From the NCBI RefSeq assembly GCF_021028995.1, contig NZ_JAJJZG010000018.1, positions 1-55,417 of the forward strand: a stretch of DNA of 55,417 bases. Reading direction: 5' to 3'. Position 1 is the stretch's first letter; each line of letters opens with the position of its first letter. The notes under the pieces are model-generated. The model did not search any database. It was given only the letters and a program-made list of their open reading frames with translations, and was not told where the DNA came from. The DNA is from Halobacterium sp. KA-4. GTDB lineage: Archaea; Halobacteriota; Halobacteria; Halobacteriales; Halobacteriaceae. Below, piece after piece: positions 21,195 through 32,607 of this stretch. A program made the position numbers and the translations under genes.

Positions 21195-21869
21195 ATGCTC
21201 TCGGACGTCATGGAGGACTATCTGAAGGCGGTCTACGTGCTCCAGCGCGAGCATGGCCCGCCGGTCAAGACCTCCGCCATCGCCGACTACCTCGACGTCA
21301 CGCCCCCGACGGTCACCAGCATGGTGGGGAAGCTCGAAGAGCGCGGGCTCGTCGCCCGCGAGAAGTACAAGGGCGTCGAACTCACCCCCGAGGGCGAGAC
21401 GGTCGCGCTGGAAGTGTTGCGCCACCACCGCCTCCTGGAGTCGTTTCTCGCGGACCACCTCGACTACGAATACGACGAGGTCCACGACGAGGCCGACGCG
21501 CTCGAACACCACATCAGCGAGGAGTTCGAGCGCCGCCTCGCCCGGAAACTCGACGACCCCACCGTCGACCCGCACGGCGACCCAATTCCGAGCGCGGACC
21601 TCGAACCGCCCGAACACCCCGACACCACCGCGCTCGCCGACCACGTCGCCGGCGACCGCGTCGTCGTCGCGCGCGTCGACGACCGCAACTCCGAGGAACT
21701 GCGCTACCTCACCGACGCCGGCATCGAACCCGGCACCGAGCTCTCTGTCCGCGAACACGCCCCCATCGGGCTGTTCGTCGTCGACGTCGACGGCGAGGAC
21801 GTTCACCTCCCGGACCGCGTCGCGGCCGTGATTCGCGTGCGCTCGCTCGACGAGGTGTCCGAACCGTGA
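21195..21869 (+). CDS. DtxR-family metal-dependent regulator, MntR-like metal site
   Basis: A 224-residue regulator: N-terminal winged helix (residues 1-65, with VTPPTVTSMVGKLEERGLV as recognition region), metal-binding dimerisation domain (66-145), and a C-terminal FeoA/SH3-like domain (150-220). By alignment to DtxR and MntR, the primary-site residues are D8 (Met10 in DtxR, Asp8 in MntR), D101 (Cys102 in DtxR, Glu99 in MntR), E104 and H105. The ancillary ligands H78, E82 and H97 also remain. The absence of Met/Cys and presence of Asp favour Mn2+ over Fe2+ sensing. It overlaps the GDT1 transporter gene by 4 bases, and a perfect palindrome covers its promoter. Confidence 0.9.
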   Translation: MLSDVMEDYLKAVYVLQREHGPPVKTSAIADYLDVTPPTVTSMVGKLEERGLVAREKYKGVELTPEGETVALEVLRHHRLLESFLADHLDYEYDEVHDEADALEHHISEEFERRLARKLDDPTVDPHGDPIPSADLEPPEHPDTTALADHVAGDRVVVARVDDRNSEELRYLTDAGIEPGTELSVREHAPIGLFVVDVDGEDVHLPDRVAAVIRVRSLDEVSEP

Positions 21870-27090: not shown

Positions 27091-27834
27091 TCACGGATTC
27101 CAAGAGGGGAGCGCCACGTCACCGTCCTCGACGCGACGGTGACACGACCGACAGAGACAGACCACGTTCTCTAGGTGGTGGGCGTCCTCGGGGTCATCGA
27201 AATCCCGAACGCGGTCGAGGTGATGGACGTCCGGCTTCCGACCCAGTTCCTCGACCCCGGCGCCGCAGTTCTGGCACTCGTACTCGTCACGAACCAGTGC
27301 CGCACGCCGGACTTGCCACCACGAGGAACCATAGGGAATCGTCCCACCCTCCCACTGGTGGTGGGACTCCCCGACGACGTTCTCTGACAGCCACTCACCG
27401 TAACATTCGAGGTCGCAGAACTCTCCGTACGACGCCGACTCGACGCGTGATGGGTGCCGTTCTAACGTCTCTCCACAGTATTCACACTCGACTTCGACGT
27501 GCGGGACAGGCAAACTTTCGCCGGGGAGTAGACCGTCCGCGTCCTCGACGCACCCCGAACAGTAGACGCCGTCCCTGTTCGACGGGTAGTAGTCGAAGGT
27601 GTCGCCGCACTGCTCGCACTCGGTCGTCTCTTTCGCACCGCTGTAGTTCCCGTTTTTCTCCCCCGCCTGAGAGTAGCAGTCGTCGCAGTACGTGCGCCGC
27701 GACTTCGGGTCGTAGAATTCAGTACCACAGTCCGCACAGGTCCGGTTCGGGAGTGGTTCGTCGTGGACTTTCGTATGGTGCTGGCGCATCCCTCGCTCCG
27801 TCGAGAGCGCCTTCCCGCAGGTCGGGCAGTCCAT
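27091..27834 (-). CDS. HNH endonuclease with N-terminal C2H2 finger and several CxxC zinc knuckles
   Basis: A 247-residue protein. Residues 3-24 are a C2H2 finger (C3, C6, H19, H24). CxxC pairs follow at 33/36, 50/53, 73/76, 92/95 and 117/120, with C140/C144 completing further zinc knuckles. The HNH domain occupies about 180-240: CQNC (187-190), VHHLD (H204, H205), LENVVCLCRSCHRR with N223 and ligands C228, C231. The active site looks intact, so it is a probable metal-dependent DNA nuclease. Such proteins are free-standing homing endonucleases or defence nucleases in haloarchaea; target unknown. It lies 41 bases from a tRNA gene, is transcribed in the same direction, and its base composition is less GC-rich than its neighbours. 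Confidence 0.82.
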   Translation of the reverse strand: MDCPTCGKALSTERGMRQHHTKVHDEPLPNRTCADCGTEFYDPKSRRTYCDDCYSQAGEKNGNYSGAKETTECEQCGDTFDYYPSNRDGVYCSGCVEDADGLLPGESLPVPHVEVECEYCGETLERHPSRVESASYGEFCDLECYGEWLSENVVGESHHQWEGGTIPYGSSWWQVRRAALVRDEYECQNCGAGVEELGRKPDVHHLDRVRDFDDPEDAHHLENVVCLCRSCHRRVEDGDVALPSWNP

Positions 27835-27886: not shown

Positions 27887-28321
27887 TCAGTCGTCGGCTT
27901 CGATGCCTTCCTCGACGAGCAGGCCGCAGGCGTCGGCTTCCGCGTCGAAGCACTCCGGACACTGCGGCTCGCGGTCGATAATCATGTCGAGGCGGTCCGC
28001 GACCGTCTCGTCGATGACTGGCTCCAGTTGTCGGGCTTCCGCGCGGAAGTCGTCGACGTCGAGGACGTTCGCGAGGAAGCGTTCGAGGATGCAGTACGTC
28101 TGCAGCGCCTCGCGGGCGCGGGCTTCGCCGTCGTCGGTGACGGTCGCACCTTTGTACTTCTCGTGGGCGACGAGCCCGCGGTCTTCGAGTTTCCCCACCA
28201 TCTCGTTGACGCTCGCCGGGCTGACGCCGAGGCGGTCGGCGAGCTCGCCGGTCGCCGCCGGGCCATCTTCGAGCTGCTCGACGAGGAAAATCGTCTTCAA
28301 GTACTGGTCGGCAGTATTCAC
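27887..28321 (-). CDS. DtxR-family regulator (SirR-like) with degenerate metal site and Cys cluster
   Basis: A 144-residue regulator: winged helix (GVSPASVNEMVGKLEDRGLVAHEKYKG) plus a short helical domain, without the C-terminal SH3 domain of the paralogue 7 kb away. By alignment (numbering from this start), the DtxR ligands are replaced: Met10 by Gln6, Cys102 by Arg97, His106 by Pro101; only Glu100 remains. The C-terminus instead has CPECFDAEADAC, three cysteines that could bind Zn, Fe or an Fe-S cluster. The GTG at 28321 is preferred over the in-frame GTG at 28330 because GGAGGTG (28328-28334) lies 6 nt upstream. It follows a ferritin-like gene, and the suf operon is next. Confidence 0.85.
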   Translation of the reverse strand: MNTADQYLKTIFLVEQLEDGPAATGELADRLGVSPASVNEMVGKLEDRGLVAHEKYKGATVTDDGEARAREALQTYCILERFLANVLDVDDFRAEARQLEPVIDETVADRLDMIIDREPQCPECFDAEADACGLLVEEGIEADD

Positions 28322-28358: not shown

Positions 28359-28853
28359 TCATGCGCGGGCCTCCATCAGTTTCGCGACCTCTTCGACGCC
28401 CTCGGCTTCCGCGTGGCGGATGTCCCGGAGCGTCTCCAGGACCGCCTCGCGGTCGACGCCGAACGTGGCGTCGCTGGCTTCGACGGCGTCGATGAGGTCG
28501 TCGTAGAATTTGTACGCGGTCTCCTCGCCGTGGAGCTGGTCGTAGAGTACGCCGTCGAAGTCCTCCGGGCCGGTCTGCCCGTAGCTTCCCGCGACGAGCT
28601 CTTTGACATCCTCGAAAGGGATGCTGTCGGCGTCAAGGTCCTCGACGAGCGATTCGAGTCGGCGGCGGTGTTCGGCGGACTCCGCGCTGGCCTCCGAGAG
28701 CAGCTCCTCGATGGCTTCGTCGCGCTCCTCGACGGGCAGCGACTGGTAGTGTCTGTGCGCGCGGGCCTCCACGACCTCTTCGAGCACGATGCCGATCTGG
28801 AGGAGGCGCGCGAGCTGGTCGTCGGAGTCGACGCGGGCCGCGACCGAACTCAC
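28359..28853 (-). CDS. ferritin-like / rubrerythrin-fold protein
   Basis: A 164-residue, mostly helical acidic protein with the ferritin-like pattern of metal-ligating residues: Glu in VLEEVVEARAHRHY, ExxH in SAEHRRR, Glu in HGEETAYKFYDDL, and a last helix with RHAEAEGVEEV. It could store iron or act as a peroxide-reducing di-iron protein; the exact reaction is unknown. The GTG at 28853 is chosen because GAGGTG (28860-28865) lies 6 nt upstream, the same spacing as in the next gene. A TATA-like GGTTTAAGTCC at about 28910-28920 gives a leader of about 35 nt. It is co-transcribed with the SirR-like gene, 37 bases downstream. Confidence 0.8.
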   Translation of the reverse strand: MSSVAARVDSDDQLARLLQIGIVLEEVVEARAHRHYQSLPVEERDEAIEELLSEASAESAEHRRRLESLVEDLDADSIPFEDVKELVAGSYGQTGPEDFDGVLYDQLHGEETAYKFYDDLIDAVEASDATFGVDREAVLETLRDIRHAEAEGVEEVAKLMEARA

Positions 28854-28859
28854 GGCGTA

Positions 28860-28865
28860 CACCTC
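28860..28865 (-). promoter_or_regulatory. Shine-Dalgarno that fixes the ferritin-like start
   Basis: GAGGTG on the minus strand, 6 nt before the GTG at 28853. The other in-frame GTG (28862) lies inside this SD. This gene and its downstream partner are leadered, unlike many leaderless genes in the window. Confidence 0.55.
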
Positions 28866-28969: not shown

Positions 28970-30193
28970 CTACTGCAGGCGCTCGTGGATGCGCGTCTGG
29001 AGGTCCTCGCGGAGCTCCTCGACTTCGACTTCCTCGAGCACCGGCACGAAGAAGCCCTCGACGAGCATGTCCGTGGCGAGCTGCTCGGGGACGCCGCGGT
29101 TCTCCATGTAGAACAGCGTCTCCTCGTCGACCTGACCGACGGTCGCGGAGTGGCTGGCCTCGGTGTCGTGGTTGTTGATGATGAGCTTCGGGGAGGCGTC
29201 GGCCTCGCTCTCGTCGCTCAGCATCAGCGTGTTCTCGCGCTGGTAGCTGGAGGTGTCCCAGGCGTCTTCGCCGACGTCCTGGACGCCCTCGTACACCGAG
29301 CGCGCGTCGTCGTCGATGACGCCGCGCGTGACGAGGTCGGCGGTCGTGTGTTCGCCGCGGTGCCAGACCTTCGAGTCGAGGTCGAAGTGCTGGCCGTCGT
29401 GGCCGAAGAACGCGCCGACAATCTTCGTCTCACTGGAGTCACCGTTGAGTTCCGTGGAGACGCTCGTCTTCGTCAGGCGGCTGCCGAGGTTGCCCTCGAT
29501 CCAGTCGACCGTGCTGTAGGTGGTCGCGTCGCCGCGCTTGACGGTGTAGTTGTACGTGTCCTCGTCGAAGTCCTGCAGGCTCCCGTACTGGACGTAGGAG
29601 TTCTCGCCCGCGTCGACTTCGACGACGCCGGAGTAGTACCGGCCGTCGTCGACGGCTTCGGCGTCGTCGCTCGTGTCCTGGCGCTCCAGGATGGTCACCG
29701 AGGAGTTGCTTTCGGTGACGACGAGCGTGTAGTTGAACAGCGACCGGGAGGTCATTGACGTCCGAATCTTCACGTCCTCGGCGTCGACGCCGGCGGGCAC
29801 GTAGACGACCGTGCCGGTCGTGAACAGCGCCGTCGACAGCGCGGTCAGGCGGTTCTGCTGCGGGTCGACGATGCTGCCGAAGTGCTCCTCGACGAGTTCG
29901 GCGAGGTCATCGTCCTGCAGGGCCTCGTGGAACGACGCGACTTCGACGTCCTCGGGGCCGACCTGGTCTTTCTGCTCGGTCTGGGTGAGTGGGTCGACCA
30001 GCGCCTCGAAGTCGAGGTCCTCAAGGTTCGTCCACTTGCGGCCGGGCGTCTCGATGACGCTCGGATAGTCGAGGTCTTCGAGCGCGTCGAGGGCGTCCAG
30101 TCGCGTCTGGAGCAGCCACTCGGGCTCGTCGTGCTCGTCGGCGAGCTGTCGTACGGTCTCTTCGCTGATGTCCTGGTGCAGTTGGGTGCTCAT
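28970..30193 (-). CDS. sufD: Fe-S cluster assembly protein SufD
   Basis: A 407-residue protein, the last gene of the sufCBD operon. It has the SufBD beta-helix core (TGTVVYVPAGVDAEDVKIRT, DSKVWHRGEHTTADLVTRGVI) and the C-terminal helical domain ending in VEVEELREDLQTRIHERLQ. A conserved histidine-containing stretch (NHDTEASHSATVGQVDEETLFYMENRG) matches the SufD/SufB C-terminal motif. SufD pairs with SufB and with the ATPase SufC to build [4Fe-4S] clusters in the cytoplasm. It starts 1 base after the SufB gene ends, so the two are coupled. The start at 30193 is set by the MSTQLHQDIS beginning. Confidence 0.92.
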   Translation of the reverse strand: MSTQLHQDISEETVRQLADEHDEPEWLLQTRLDALDALEDLDYPSVIETPGRKWTNLEDLDFEALVDPLTQTEQKDQVGPEDVEVASFHEALQDDDLAELVEEHFGSIVDPQQNRLTALSTALFTTGTVVYVPAGVDAEDVKIRTSMTSRSLFNYTLVVTESNSSVTILERQDTSDDAEAVDDGRYYSGVVEVDAGENSYVQYGSLQDFDEDTYNYTVKRGDATTYSTVDWIEGNLGSRLTKTSVSTELNGDSSETKIVGAFFGHDGQHFDLDSKVWHRGEHTTADLVTRGVIDDDARSVYEGVQDVGEDAWDTSSYQRENTLMLSDESEADASPKLIINNHDTEASHSATVGQVDEETLFYMENRGVPEQLATDMLVEGFFVPVLEEVEVEELREDLQTRIHERLQ

Positions 30194-30194
30194 G

Positions 30195-31625
30195 TTATCC
30201 GAGGCTCCCCTCCATCTCGAGTTCGATGAGGCGGTTGAGCTCCACCGCGTACTCGATGGGCAGTTCCTCCGTGATGGGCTCGATGAAGCCCGCGACAATC
30301 ATCTGCTTAGCGTCGTCGTCGTCGAGGCCGCGAGACTGGAGGTAGAAGACGTCCTCGTCGCCGATCTTGCCGACGGTCGCCTCGTGGGCAACGTCCACCT
30401 TCGACTCGTTAATCTCCATGTACGGCATGGTGTCGCTAGTGGACTCGTTGTCGAACATCAGCGCGTCACACTCGACGGACGTCGAGGAGTTCTCGGCACC
30501 GTCAGCGATGTGGACGAGGCCGCGGTAGTTCGTGCGGCCGCCGTCTTTCGCGATGGACTTGGACTCGATGGTGGACTTCGTATCGGGCGCGTTGTGGTAG
30601 ACCTTCGCGCCGGTGTCGATGTCCTGGCCCTCGCCTGCGAACGCGATGGTGATGTGGTTGTCAGTCGCGCCGCGGCCCTTCAGAATCGACGAGGGGTACA
30701 GCATCGTCGCCTTCGACCCCATGGAACCGGAGACCCACTCCATGGTGGCGTTCTCCTCGACGATGGCGCGCTTCGTGTTGAGGTTGAACGTGTTCTTCGA
30801 CCAGTTCTGCACGGTCGAGTACTGCACGTGAGCGTCCTCTTTCACGAAGACTTCGACGCCACCGGAGTGGAGGTTGTGGCTGCCGTACTTCGGCGCCGAA
30901 CAACCTTCGATGTAGTGCACTTCCGAGCCTTCCTCGGCGATGATGAGCGTGTGCTCGAACTGACCCATGCCCTCGGAATTCATCCGGAAGTACGCCTGTA
31001 CGGGCATGTTCACGGTCACGTCCTCGGGGATGTGCACGAAGCTCCCGCCGGACCAGACTGCGCCGTGGAGCGCCGCGAATTTGTTGTCGCTGGCCGGCAC
31101 GCACTTCGTCATGAAGTGCTCTTTGACCAGTTCCGGGTACTCCTGCACGGCTTCGTCCATGTTACAGAAGACGACGCCCTTCTCCTCCCAGCGCTCCTGC
31201 ATGTTCTGGTAGACGACTTCGGACTCGTACTGGGCGCCGACGCCGGAGAGCGCCTCGCGCTCGGCCTCGGGGATGCCCAGCTGTTCGAACGTGTCCTGAA
31301 TCTCGTCCGGGAGGTCCTCCCACTCGTCCGCGCCCGAGCGCTTGTCCACGTCGGGGCGGATGTAGGGAACAATCTCTTCGACGTCGAGTTCGGAGAGGTC
31401 CGGCTGGCCCGGCCAATCCGTCGGCATCGGCATCTTCTTGTACTGCTCGAGGGCGCGCAGGCGCCGGTCGAGCATCCACTCGGGCTCGTCTTTGTCTTCG
31501 GAGATGAGCCGAATGGTCTCCTCAGTAAGGCCTTTCTCGGACTTGAAGGCGGACTTCTCCTCCTTCTTGAATTCGAATCGGGCCTCGGTGTCGGTTTCTT
31601 CGAGGTGGTCTTGGTCTGAGCTCAT
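30195..31625 (-). CDS. sufB: Fe-S cluster assembly scaffold SufB
   Basis: A 476-residue SufB. Family features: the N-terminal RLISEDKDEPEWMLDRRLRALEQYKKM region, the beta-helix core with GAVWSGGSFVHIPEDVTVNMPVQAYFRMN and IEGCSAPKYGSHNLHSGGVEVFV, and the conserved C-terminal stretch VAHEATVGKIGDEDVFYLQSRGLDDDDAKQMIV. The Cys in EGCSAP is the candidate sulfur acceptor in the scaffold, as in other SufB proteins. It forms the SufBC2D complex that assembles Fe-S clusters. It is very acidic at the N-terminus. It starts 9 bases after sufC. Confidence 0.95.
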   Translation of the reverse strand: MSSDQDHLEETDTEARFEFKKEEKSAFKSEKGLTEETIRLISEDKDEPEWMLDRRLRALEQYKKMPMPTDWPGQPDLSELDVEEIVPYIRPDVDKRSGADEWEDLPDEIQDTFEQLGIPEAEREALSGVGAQYESEVVYQNMQERWEEKGVVFCNMDEAVQEYPELVKEHFMTKCVPASDNKFAALHGAVWSGGSFVHIPEDVTVNMPVQAYFRMNSEGMGQFEHTLIIAEEGSEVHYIEGCSAPKYGSHNLHSGGVEVFVKEDAHVQYSTVQNWSKNTFNLNTKRAIVEENATMEWVSGSMGSKATMLYPSSILKGRGATDNHITIAFAGEGQDIDTGAKVYHNAPDTKSTIESKSIAKDGGRTNYRGLVHIADGAENSSTSVECDALMFDNESTSDTMPYMEINESKVDVAHEATVGKIGDEDVFYLQSRGLDDDDAKQMIVAGFIEPITEELPIEYAVELNRLIELEMEGSLG

Positions 31626-31634
31626 GATTGTGGT

Positions 31635-32543
31635 TTACGCAGTCTCGTAGACCTGGTCGCGCACCCAGTCGTACCCCTTGTCTTCGAGCTTCTCGGCGAG
31701 CTCGGCGTCCCCTTCCATGACGACTTCGCCGTCAAGCATGATGTGGACGCGGTCGGGTTCGACGTAGTCGAGGATGCGCTGGTAGTGGGTGATCTGGAGG
31801 ATACCCGTGTCCTGTTCGTCGCGCAGTGCGTTGATGCCCTTCGCGACGTCCTGCAGACGGTCGATGTCGAGGCCCGAGTCGATCTCGTCGAGCACGGCAA
31901 TCGACGGTTCGAGGATGGCAGCCTGGAGGACCTCGTTCTGCTTCTTCTCGCCGCCGGAGAAGCCGGCGTTGAGGTAGCGCGTCGCGAACGACTCGTCCAT
32001 GTCCAGGGCTTCCATCTTCTCGGAGAGGAGTTCCTGGAACTCCGCGACGCCGACTTCGCCTTCGTCGGCGGGGCCCTCCATCGGGGAGGTCTCGTAGCCC
32101 TCGTCGTCTTCTTCTGCTTCCTCGTCCTCACCGAAGAGGAGTTCGTCGCGCTCTTCGAGTTTTGCGTTGAGCGCGGTGCGGAGGAAATTCACGAGCGTGA
32201 CGCCCTCGATTTCGGCAGGGTACTGGAAGCCGAGGTAGATGCCGAGCGCGGCGCGCTCGTTCGGCTCCAGTTCGAGGAGGTCCCACGTCCGTGCGTCCTC
32301 CGGCAACTCGGCGACGTCGTCGAAGTCACCCTCCTCGAGGTGGAGGAGGACTTCACCTTCGGTGACGTCGTAGGCCGGGTGGCCGGCGATAATCTTCGAG
32401 GTGGTCGACTTCCCCGAGCCGTTCGGGCCCATCAGGGCGTGGATTTCGCCCGACGGGATTTCGAGGTCGACGCCTTCGAGAATCTGCTCTCCGCCCTCTT
32501 CTGCGACTTTCGCGTGTACGTTTTTGAGTTCGAGCGTAGCCAT
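31635..32543 (-). CDS. sufC: Fe-S cluster assembly ATPase SufC
   Basis: A 302-residue ABC-type ATPase. Walker A is GPNGSGKST (39-47), the signature is FSGGEKKQNEVLQ, and Walker B with switch is IAVLDEIDSGLD. It powers the SufBD scaffold. An acidic insertion of about 30 residues (around 140-172, rich in E/D, containing EDEEAEEDDEGYE) is not present in bacterial SufC and is common in halophilic homologues. It is the first gene of sufCBD; the divergent promoter region upstream has two tandem inverted repeats. Confidence 0.95.
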   Translation of the reverse strand: MATLELKNVHAKVAEEGGEQILEGVDLEIPSGEIHALMGPNGSGKSTTSKIIAGHPAYDVTEGEVLLHLEEGDFDDVAELPEDARTWDLLELEPNERAALGIYLGFQYPAEIEGVTLVNFLRTALNAKLEERDELLFGEDEEAEEDDEGYETSPMEGPADEGEVGVAEFQELLSEKMEALDMDESFATRYLNAGFSGGEKKQNEVLQAAILEPSIAVLDEIDSGLDIDRLQDVAKGINALRDEQDTGILQITHYQRILDYVEPDRVHIMLDGEVVMEGDAELAEKLEDKGYDWVRDQVYETA

Positions 32544-32607
32544 TGCCTCAGTCGTCTGTAGGGAGGGGCGTGGGACGCATAACGGTTACGGAATTCACGG
32601 GTTCCGG

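Follow-up and report, generated by a model that had tools for sequence, protein, structure and literature searches.

The described proteins closest to the regulator studied here are DtxR-family regulators of haloarchaea. PMC11349517 ties three DtxR proteins to iron homeostasis in Haloferax volcanii and identifies one of them, HVO_0863, as TroR, which the literature names the primary iron regulator of this species. Another family member, SirR, is reported as Mn-dependent in Halobacterium (PMC3600143). Outside the family, PMC7762939 describes RirA as a cluster regulator that responds to iron and Fe-S.

Here we analyze a TroR-type regulator encoded in a 55,417-nucleotide stretch of Halobacterium sp. 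KA-4 (contig NZ_JAJJZG010000018.1; hereafter, the window). Iron regulation by TroR as such is already known, and the identity of the protein was missing from an earlier note made from the DNA of the window. In a model archaeon TroR is regarded as the main regulator of iron, yet its sequence contains none of the metal pockets to which the family's iron sensing is ascribed. The new part is what looks like an exchanged sensor in a known regulator.

Table 1. Positions of the regulator, its neighbors, the cysteine codons and the promoter elements in the window
Feature	Position	Strand	Remark
HNH endonuclease gene, several zinc-ribbon-like CxxC motifs	27091-27834	-	directly downstream of the regulator
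TroR-type DtxR-fold regulator, 144 aa	27887..28321	-	GTG start at 28321, stop 27887
Cys132 codon	27926..27928	-	invariant in 81/81 orthologues
Cys124 codon (CPxC)	27950..27952	-	invariant in 81/81 orthologues
Cys121 codon (CPxC)	27959..27961	-	invariant in 81/81 orthologues
Cys77 codon	28091..28093	-	helix α4, DtxR Arg80 position; invariant in 81/81
Ferritin-fold (Dps/bacterioferritin-like) gene	28359..28862	-	directly upstream of the regulator
sufD	28970..30298	-	TIGR01981
sufB	30195..31625	-	TIGR01980
sufC	31635..32543	-	TIGR01978
Conserved sufC promoter element AATTCCGTAACCGTTATG	32578..32595	-	at this place in 55/57 loci
TTAGGTTTTCCCAA, weakly matching the iron operator TTAGG-N4-CCTAA	32636..32649	-	2 mismatches
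Perfect 16-bp palindrome TTTAGACGCGTCTAAA	21167..21182	+	ends 12 nt upstream of the SirR-type gene
Canonical-site, FeoA-containing (SirR-type) paralogue	21195..21869	+	Pfam Fe_dep_repr_C, Fe_dep_repress, FeoA; ligand row DKHREHEDEHDPG-

Orthology to TroR and the gene neighborhood

The earlier note had placed a DtxR-family protein at 27887-28321, and the open reading frame found there contains both Pfam domains of the family: the N-terminal winged HTH domain Fe_dep_repress (PF01325; E = 6e-18, 65 bits against a cut-off of 26) and the dimerisation domain Fe_dep_repr_C (PF02742; E = 5e-10, 39.6 bits against a cut-off of 27). A domain search for the Rrf2 domain of the RirA/IscR family gave no match at E ≤ 0.001. 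The AF2 monomer (pLDDT 88) adopts a two-domain DtxR-type fold, with a confidence of 68 over residues 131-140. Its PDB matches include DtxR, IdeR and MntR, the best being DR2539 (Z = 15.0, with DtxR at 13.9), and an Arg80Ala structure of DtxR is also among them; past residue 115 the register of the structural aligner is ambiguous.

The scan of one genome collection yielded 80 orthologues with 69-92% identity, giving an alignment of 81 rows. In a sample of 293 haloarchaeal genomes that are at least 90% complete, the TroR type is present in 287. A misread frame or lineage-specific decay of the gene is ruled out by this distribution and by conservation in 81/81 rows.

A primer published as targeting 'up/downstream of HVO_0863' (PMC6801745) matches three Haloferax genomes, about 560 bp before the regulator orthologue in each. 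The gene order there is sufC-sufB-sufD, ferritin-like gene, regulator orthologue, with the primer before the ferritin-like gene, and the orthologue is the only match to the target protein within the published amplicon length behind this forward primer. None of the three genomes has a match to the amplicon's reverse primer, and they are possibly not from H. volcanii. The Haloferax proteins are 66-69% identical to the regulator and have the same ligand losses and the same four cysteines; together with the shared gene order and the flank primer, there is no essential difference in the features compared. By these sequence comparisons the regulator is very probably the orthologue of TroR (HVO_0863), and is therefore not an unknown protein.

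The link to a ferritin-like gene and to suf, first noted in the window alone, recurs across the orthologous loci. The ferritin-like gene lies immediately upstream of the regulator in 79 of 79 scorable loci, with a median gap of 34 nt (minimum -4), and the two are probably co-transcribed. It has no confident Pfam match. The best 50 matches to its AF2 model (pLDDT 90.6) all belong to the ferritin superfamily (Dps-like, thioferritin and bacterioferritin; best Z 16.2); Foldseek E-values are weak, the best being 0.0019, so it is the ferritin fold that is supported and not the function. Upstream of the regulator in the window lies sufCBD, and sufD and sufB are near it in 69 of the 80 loci, the remainder comprising some at contig ends and others with suf elsewhere. 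On the other side of the regulator, a gene similar to the HNH endonuclease occurs at 13 of the 80 loci.

Lost metal sites and four invariant cysteines

Ligand equivalents were taken from a profile alignment to the solved DtxR, ScaR, SloR and MntR sequences, using the DtxR ligand numbering (M10, H79, R80, E83, H98, C102, E105 and H106). In the primary site, M10 is replaced by Q6, C102 by R97 and H106 by P101, and E105 is kept as E100, so that the canonical set (M10/D8, C102/E99, E105, H106) is absent. The ancillary site (H79, E83, H98) is likewise gone: H79 corresponds to Y76 in 81/81 rows and H98 to R93, which is found in most rows, leaving E83 alone, kept as E80. The canonical site is absent from all 81 aligned TroR-type orthologues, in which position 101, the H106 equivalent, is occupied by S, A, P or G, with no row having H. 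The earlier note had read Gln, Arg and Pro at the metal-ligand positions, and the alignment bears this out as Q6, R97 and P101, with the standard site lost; it had overlooked the loss of the ancillary-site histidines. E80, E95, E100 and D104 are conserved among TroR-type orthologues, and a differently built carboxylate metal site could possibly be formed from them.

Residues that never vary in the 81-row alignment are Q6, Y76, C77, E80, E95, D104, C121, P122, C124, F125, D130 and C132. The C-terminus of the protein reads C121-P-E-C124-F-x6-C132, that is, CPxC-x7-C. This tail cluster, too, had been pointed out before, on the understanding that poor conservation in orthologues would speak against it; the three cysteines hold in 81/81, and a fourth, C77 in helix 4, which had been missed, is equally invariant. 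The protein thus has four conserved cysteines, enough to coordinate a cluster. In 15 long genes of the window the cysteine content is only 0.44%, and the probability of at least four in 144 residues is about 0.004 for one sequence, so four invariant cysteines are not background. An isolated Cys-rich tail was ruled out, as C77 co-occurs with the tail cysteines across clades.

DtxR has an anion-binding site next to its ancillary metal, made up of Arg80, Ser126 and Asn130. The profile alignment places C77 at Arg80 and C121 directly after the residue aligned to DtxR 125, and the cysteine set therefore lies in the neighborhood of the anion site. DSSP assigns strands to residues 125-126 and 131-132 of the predicted model, which suggests that C132 is carried toward the CPxC pair by a hairpin. 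C77 would be close in space to C121, C124 and C132, and the four probably constitute a single metal or cluster site.

We consider it more likely than not that this site is the iron sensor, though what it binds can be read in several ways. One is a single Fe2+/Fe3+ on the four cysteines, as in rubredoxin, which would sense iron directly. TroR is already known as an iron regulator, and its four invariant cysteines include a CPxC knuckle; rubredoxin sites, however, usually have two CxxC knuckles, whereas one of the TroR cysteines stands isolated in a helix, and this reading seems to us improbable. Alternatively, the cysteines could act as a thiol redox switch, in which a disulfide between helix 4 and the tail senses peroxide or the redox state. 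Cysteine pairs could form such disulfides, and PMC5605881 reports a peroxide phenotype among haloarchaeal DtxR-family mutants, for sirR and not troR. The invariant cysteines are four rather than two, though, and the known role of TroR is in iron regulation, leaving a thiol switch distinctly improbable.

Paralogues, dual-site homologues and the order of gain and loss

Four DtxR-type proteins are encoded in the Halobacterium genome. The paralogue 7 kb from the regulator is of the same family but retains D/H/E/H/D/E/H ligands and a FeoA domain and has no Cys tail, in keeping with the clear difference between the two that the earlier note had drawn; it fits SirR. Its palindrome TTTAGACGCGTCTAAA is matched only once in the window at ≤3 mismatches (0.11 expected) and, from its sequence and position, is a probable autoregulatory operator of this paralogue. 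Compensation by the SirR-type protein was rejected: the paralogue is canonical, and neither the suf promoter nor the ferritin-like promoter contains the palindrome.

The other two paralogues, on other contigs and missing from the earlier note, are without canonical ligands and have a cysteine where TroR has C77, together with a tail rich in cysteine (KRC...HPCTGRC..ECC and RQC...DDCC..DDC). By elimination, they may be Idr1 and Idr2. Since many haloarchaea have several DtxR paralogues, TroR might have no ligand of its own and serve as a constitutive DNA-binding partner whose activity is set through heterodimers with Idr-type paralogues. The Idr-like proteins also lack the canonical site, however, so that iron sensing would stay unexplained and four invariant cysteines would be left without a role; we regard such an arrangement as highly improbable.

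Of the six genomes without the TroR type, four (G009, G011, G012 and G039) contain a homologue with both kinds of site. These dual-site homologues combine the full canonical set M/H/E/H/C/E/H with all four cysteines in 20 of the 20 rows collected (KHC...FHDEAC..EH...CPDCY...C). They can be called positional counterparts of TroR in G009, G011, G025, G037 and G048, where they stand behind the same ferritin-like gene; in other genomes the dual-site homologue is a second copy beside the TroR type. Loci L131-L143 (genera g5, g10, g40 and g49) have the TroR type and a dual-site homologue without a ferritin-like neighbor. Across all collected DtxR-type rows, those with C77 have at least two tail cysteines in 86/86 cases and at least three in 85/86, and lack the canonical triad in 66/86, whereas rows without C77 keep the triad in 30/35; the rows are related, so these counts are not independent events.

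Finding the cysteine set alongside an intact canonical site would be compatible with a structural role as well, and this is the main rival to an Fe-S sensor. Zn2+ bound by the four cysteines would staple the hairpin to helix 4 and replace the ancillary site, with iron sensed elsewhere, perhaps by a partner protein or at carboxylates rebuilt into a metal site. Zinc knuckles commonly show a CPxC pair with a hairpin cysteine, structural zinc is also bound by CPxC pairs, and E80, E95 and E100, which could contribute to a carboxylate site, are conserved. TroR and the Idr-like proteins, on the other hand, have lost the canonical ligands yet kept the cysteines, so something besides the canonical site must sense iron, and the orthologue alignment has no other invariant His or Met cluster at the old metal sites. 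A structural zinc is unlikely in our estimation.

The dual-site homologues also bear on the order of events. In the relatives that can be aligned from 30 further genomes of the phylum, C77 and C124 are both missing, although C121 and C132 are present in many; the haloarchaeal step is thus the joint gain of C77 and C124. In the tree, canonical proteins and the dual-site group lie at one end and TroR and Idr-like proteins at the other. Each group is itself well supported, but the branch parting the two ends has modest support (82/64) and does not establish that the canonical site was lost only once. Since homologues with both sites exist, the cysteine set seems to have arisen before, and not after, the loss of the canonical site. 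Going by the sequences, one gain of the four-Cys set followed by loss of the canonical site appears to be the simplest history. If the four-Cys site is the sensor, the dual-site proteins would be a rare living record of sensor replacement within one regulator fold.

Candidate iron sensing, promoter elements and known systems

TroR, Idr-like and dual-site proteins have just one conserved unit in common that could bind a metal-type cofactor, the four-Cys set, and it is absent from the canonical group. We favor an Fe-S cluster sensor because TroR is an iron regulator without the canonical site and this set is the sole shared unit. In the mechanism we propose, TroR would act as a dimeric winged-helix DtxR-fold regulator of iron genes in which both DtxR metal sites are gone. 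It would read iron status through Cys77 of helix 4 and Cys121, Cys124 and Cys132 of the C-terminal CPxC hairpin, a site roughly where DtxR binds its anion (Arg80/Ser126/Asn130). A labile Fe-S cluster, supplied by the neighboring SUF system, would be the likeliest cofactor. When iron is sufficient, the cluster would hold the DNA-binding form, with uptake repressed and storage supported; its loss or breakdown would release TroR, a direction of the allosteric switch that we infer by analogy with RirA, a protein of a different fold.

An Fe-S cluster as the cofactor has, in our judgment, an even chance at best, and the full reading, in which TroR senses iron through the four-Cys site with such a cluster as the likeliest ligand, comes very close to evenly balanced. 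More tentatively, and at somewhat less than even chance, haloarchaea may represent the first Fe-S-sensing branch of the DtxR family. The Cys site would have arisen while the Fe2+ site was intact, TroR and Idr would then have dropped the Fe2+ site, and the iron network would read Fe-S status rather than free Fe2+, only SirR having kept direct metal sensing. Should the four-Cys site be the sensor, haloarchaeal iron sensing becomes testable with four point mutations.

Haloarchaeal iron promoters contain a palindrome, TTAGG-N4-CCTAA, that resembles the DtxR box. In the Halobacterium genome it stands 13-28 nt upstream of three genes, whose products are a FecCD permease, a Peripla_BP_2 binding protein and an extracellular solute-binding protein, and in five other genomes the sites outnumber those of a reversed control (12/1, 22/1, 20/10, 16/3 and 22/1). 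Allowing ≤1 mismatch, it precedes sufC in 17 of 56 cases and in none of the shuffles. The genera with the palindrome immediately upstream of sufC are Haladaptatus, Halorussus, Halomicrococcus and, in some of its members, Halobacterium, the window having only a 2-mismatch version. Its presence before sufC suggests that suf probably belongs to the iron regulon in some haloarchaea. The ferritin-like promoter has the palindrome in 0/80 cases (≤1 mismatch), and a TroR operator there was rejected; by eye, this promoter has only a BRE/TATA-like GGGAAC..TTAAGT.

Several further sites were observed. The motif TTAGGTGAACCTAA, or a version with 1 mismatch, ends a few nt before the sufC start in L002-L008, L012, L014, L015, L017, L020, L023, L027 and L051, and also precedes iron-transport genes of the window's own genome. 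TTAGG-N4-CCTAA sites are often paired in G031, G171, G310 and G024, with starts 36 bp apart, a spacing that suggests that two dimers bind cooperatively. At G024:C1:681992 (L244), TTAGGGTAGCCTAA stands some 130 bp upstream of the DtxR-type paralogue at 682136, suggesting cross-regulation among paralogues.

A second element upstream of sufC has the form RATNCGNAASSRTTATG, about 50-60 nt before the gene, and is often the perfect palindrome AATGC-GAAA-GCATT. It spans the core promoter and is much better conserved than the TTAGG-N4-CCTAA palindrome, with several positions invariant across haloarchaea. Genomes with the exact pattern have it almost exclusively at suf, and the element could be an operator that is specific to suf and overlies the core promoter.

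Among known systems, the proposed likeness to the Rrf2 Fe-S sensors RirA and IscR and to SufR is a cluster on a winged-HTH dimer that reads iron or Fe-S status, with control near suf and iron genes (for RirA, PMC7762939). These belong to a different protein family, and RirA is thought to use three Cys ligands; in TroR a cluster is proposed. MntR, ScaR, SloR and DR2539 share the two-domain core, DR2539 being the best structural match (Z 15.0), but TroR lacks the MntR-type Asp/Glu/His ligands and has the Cys site. DtxR and IdeR, from Corynebacterium and Mycobacterium, have the same winged HTH and dimerisation domain, give strong fold matches and share the equivalents of E83 and E105. TroR differs from them in having lost the equivalents of M10, C102, H106, H79 and H98, in having no SH3 domain, and in bearing a cysteine at the Arg80 position and the CPxC-x7-C tail.
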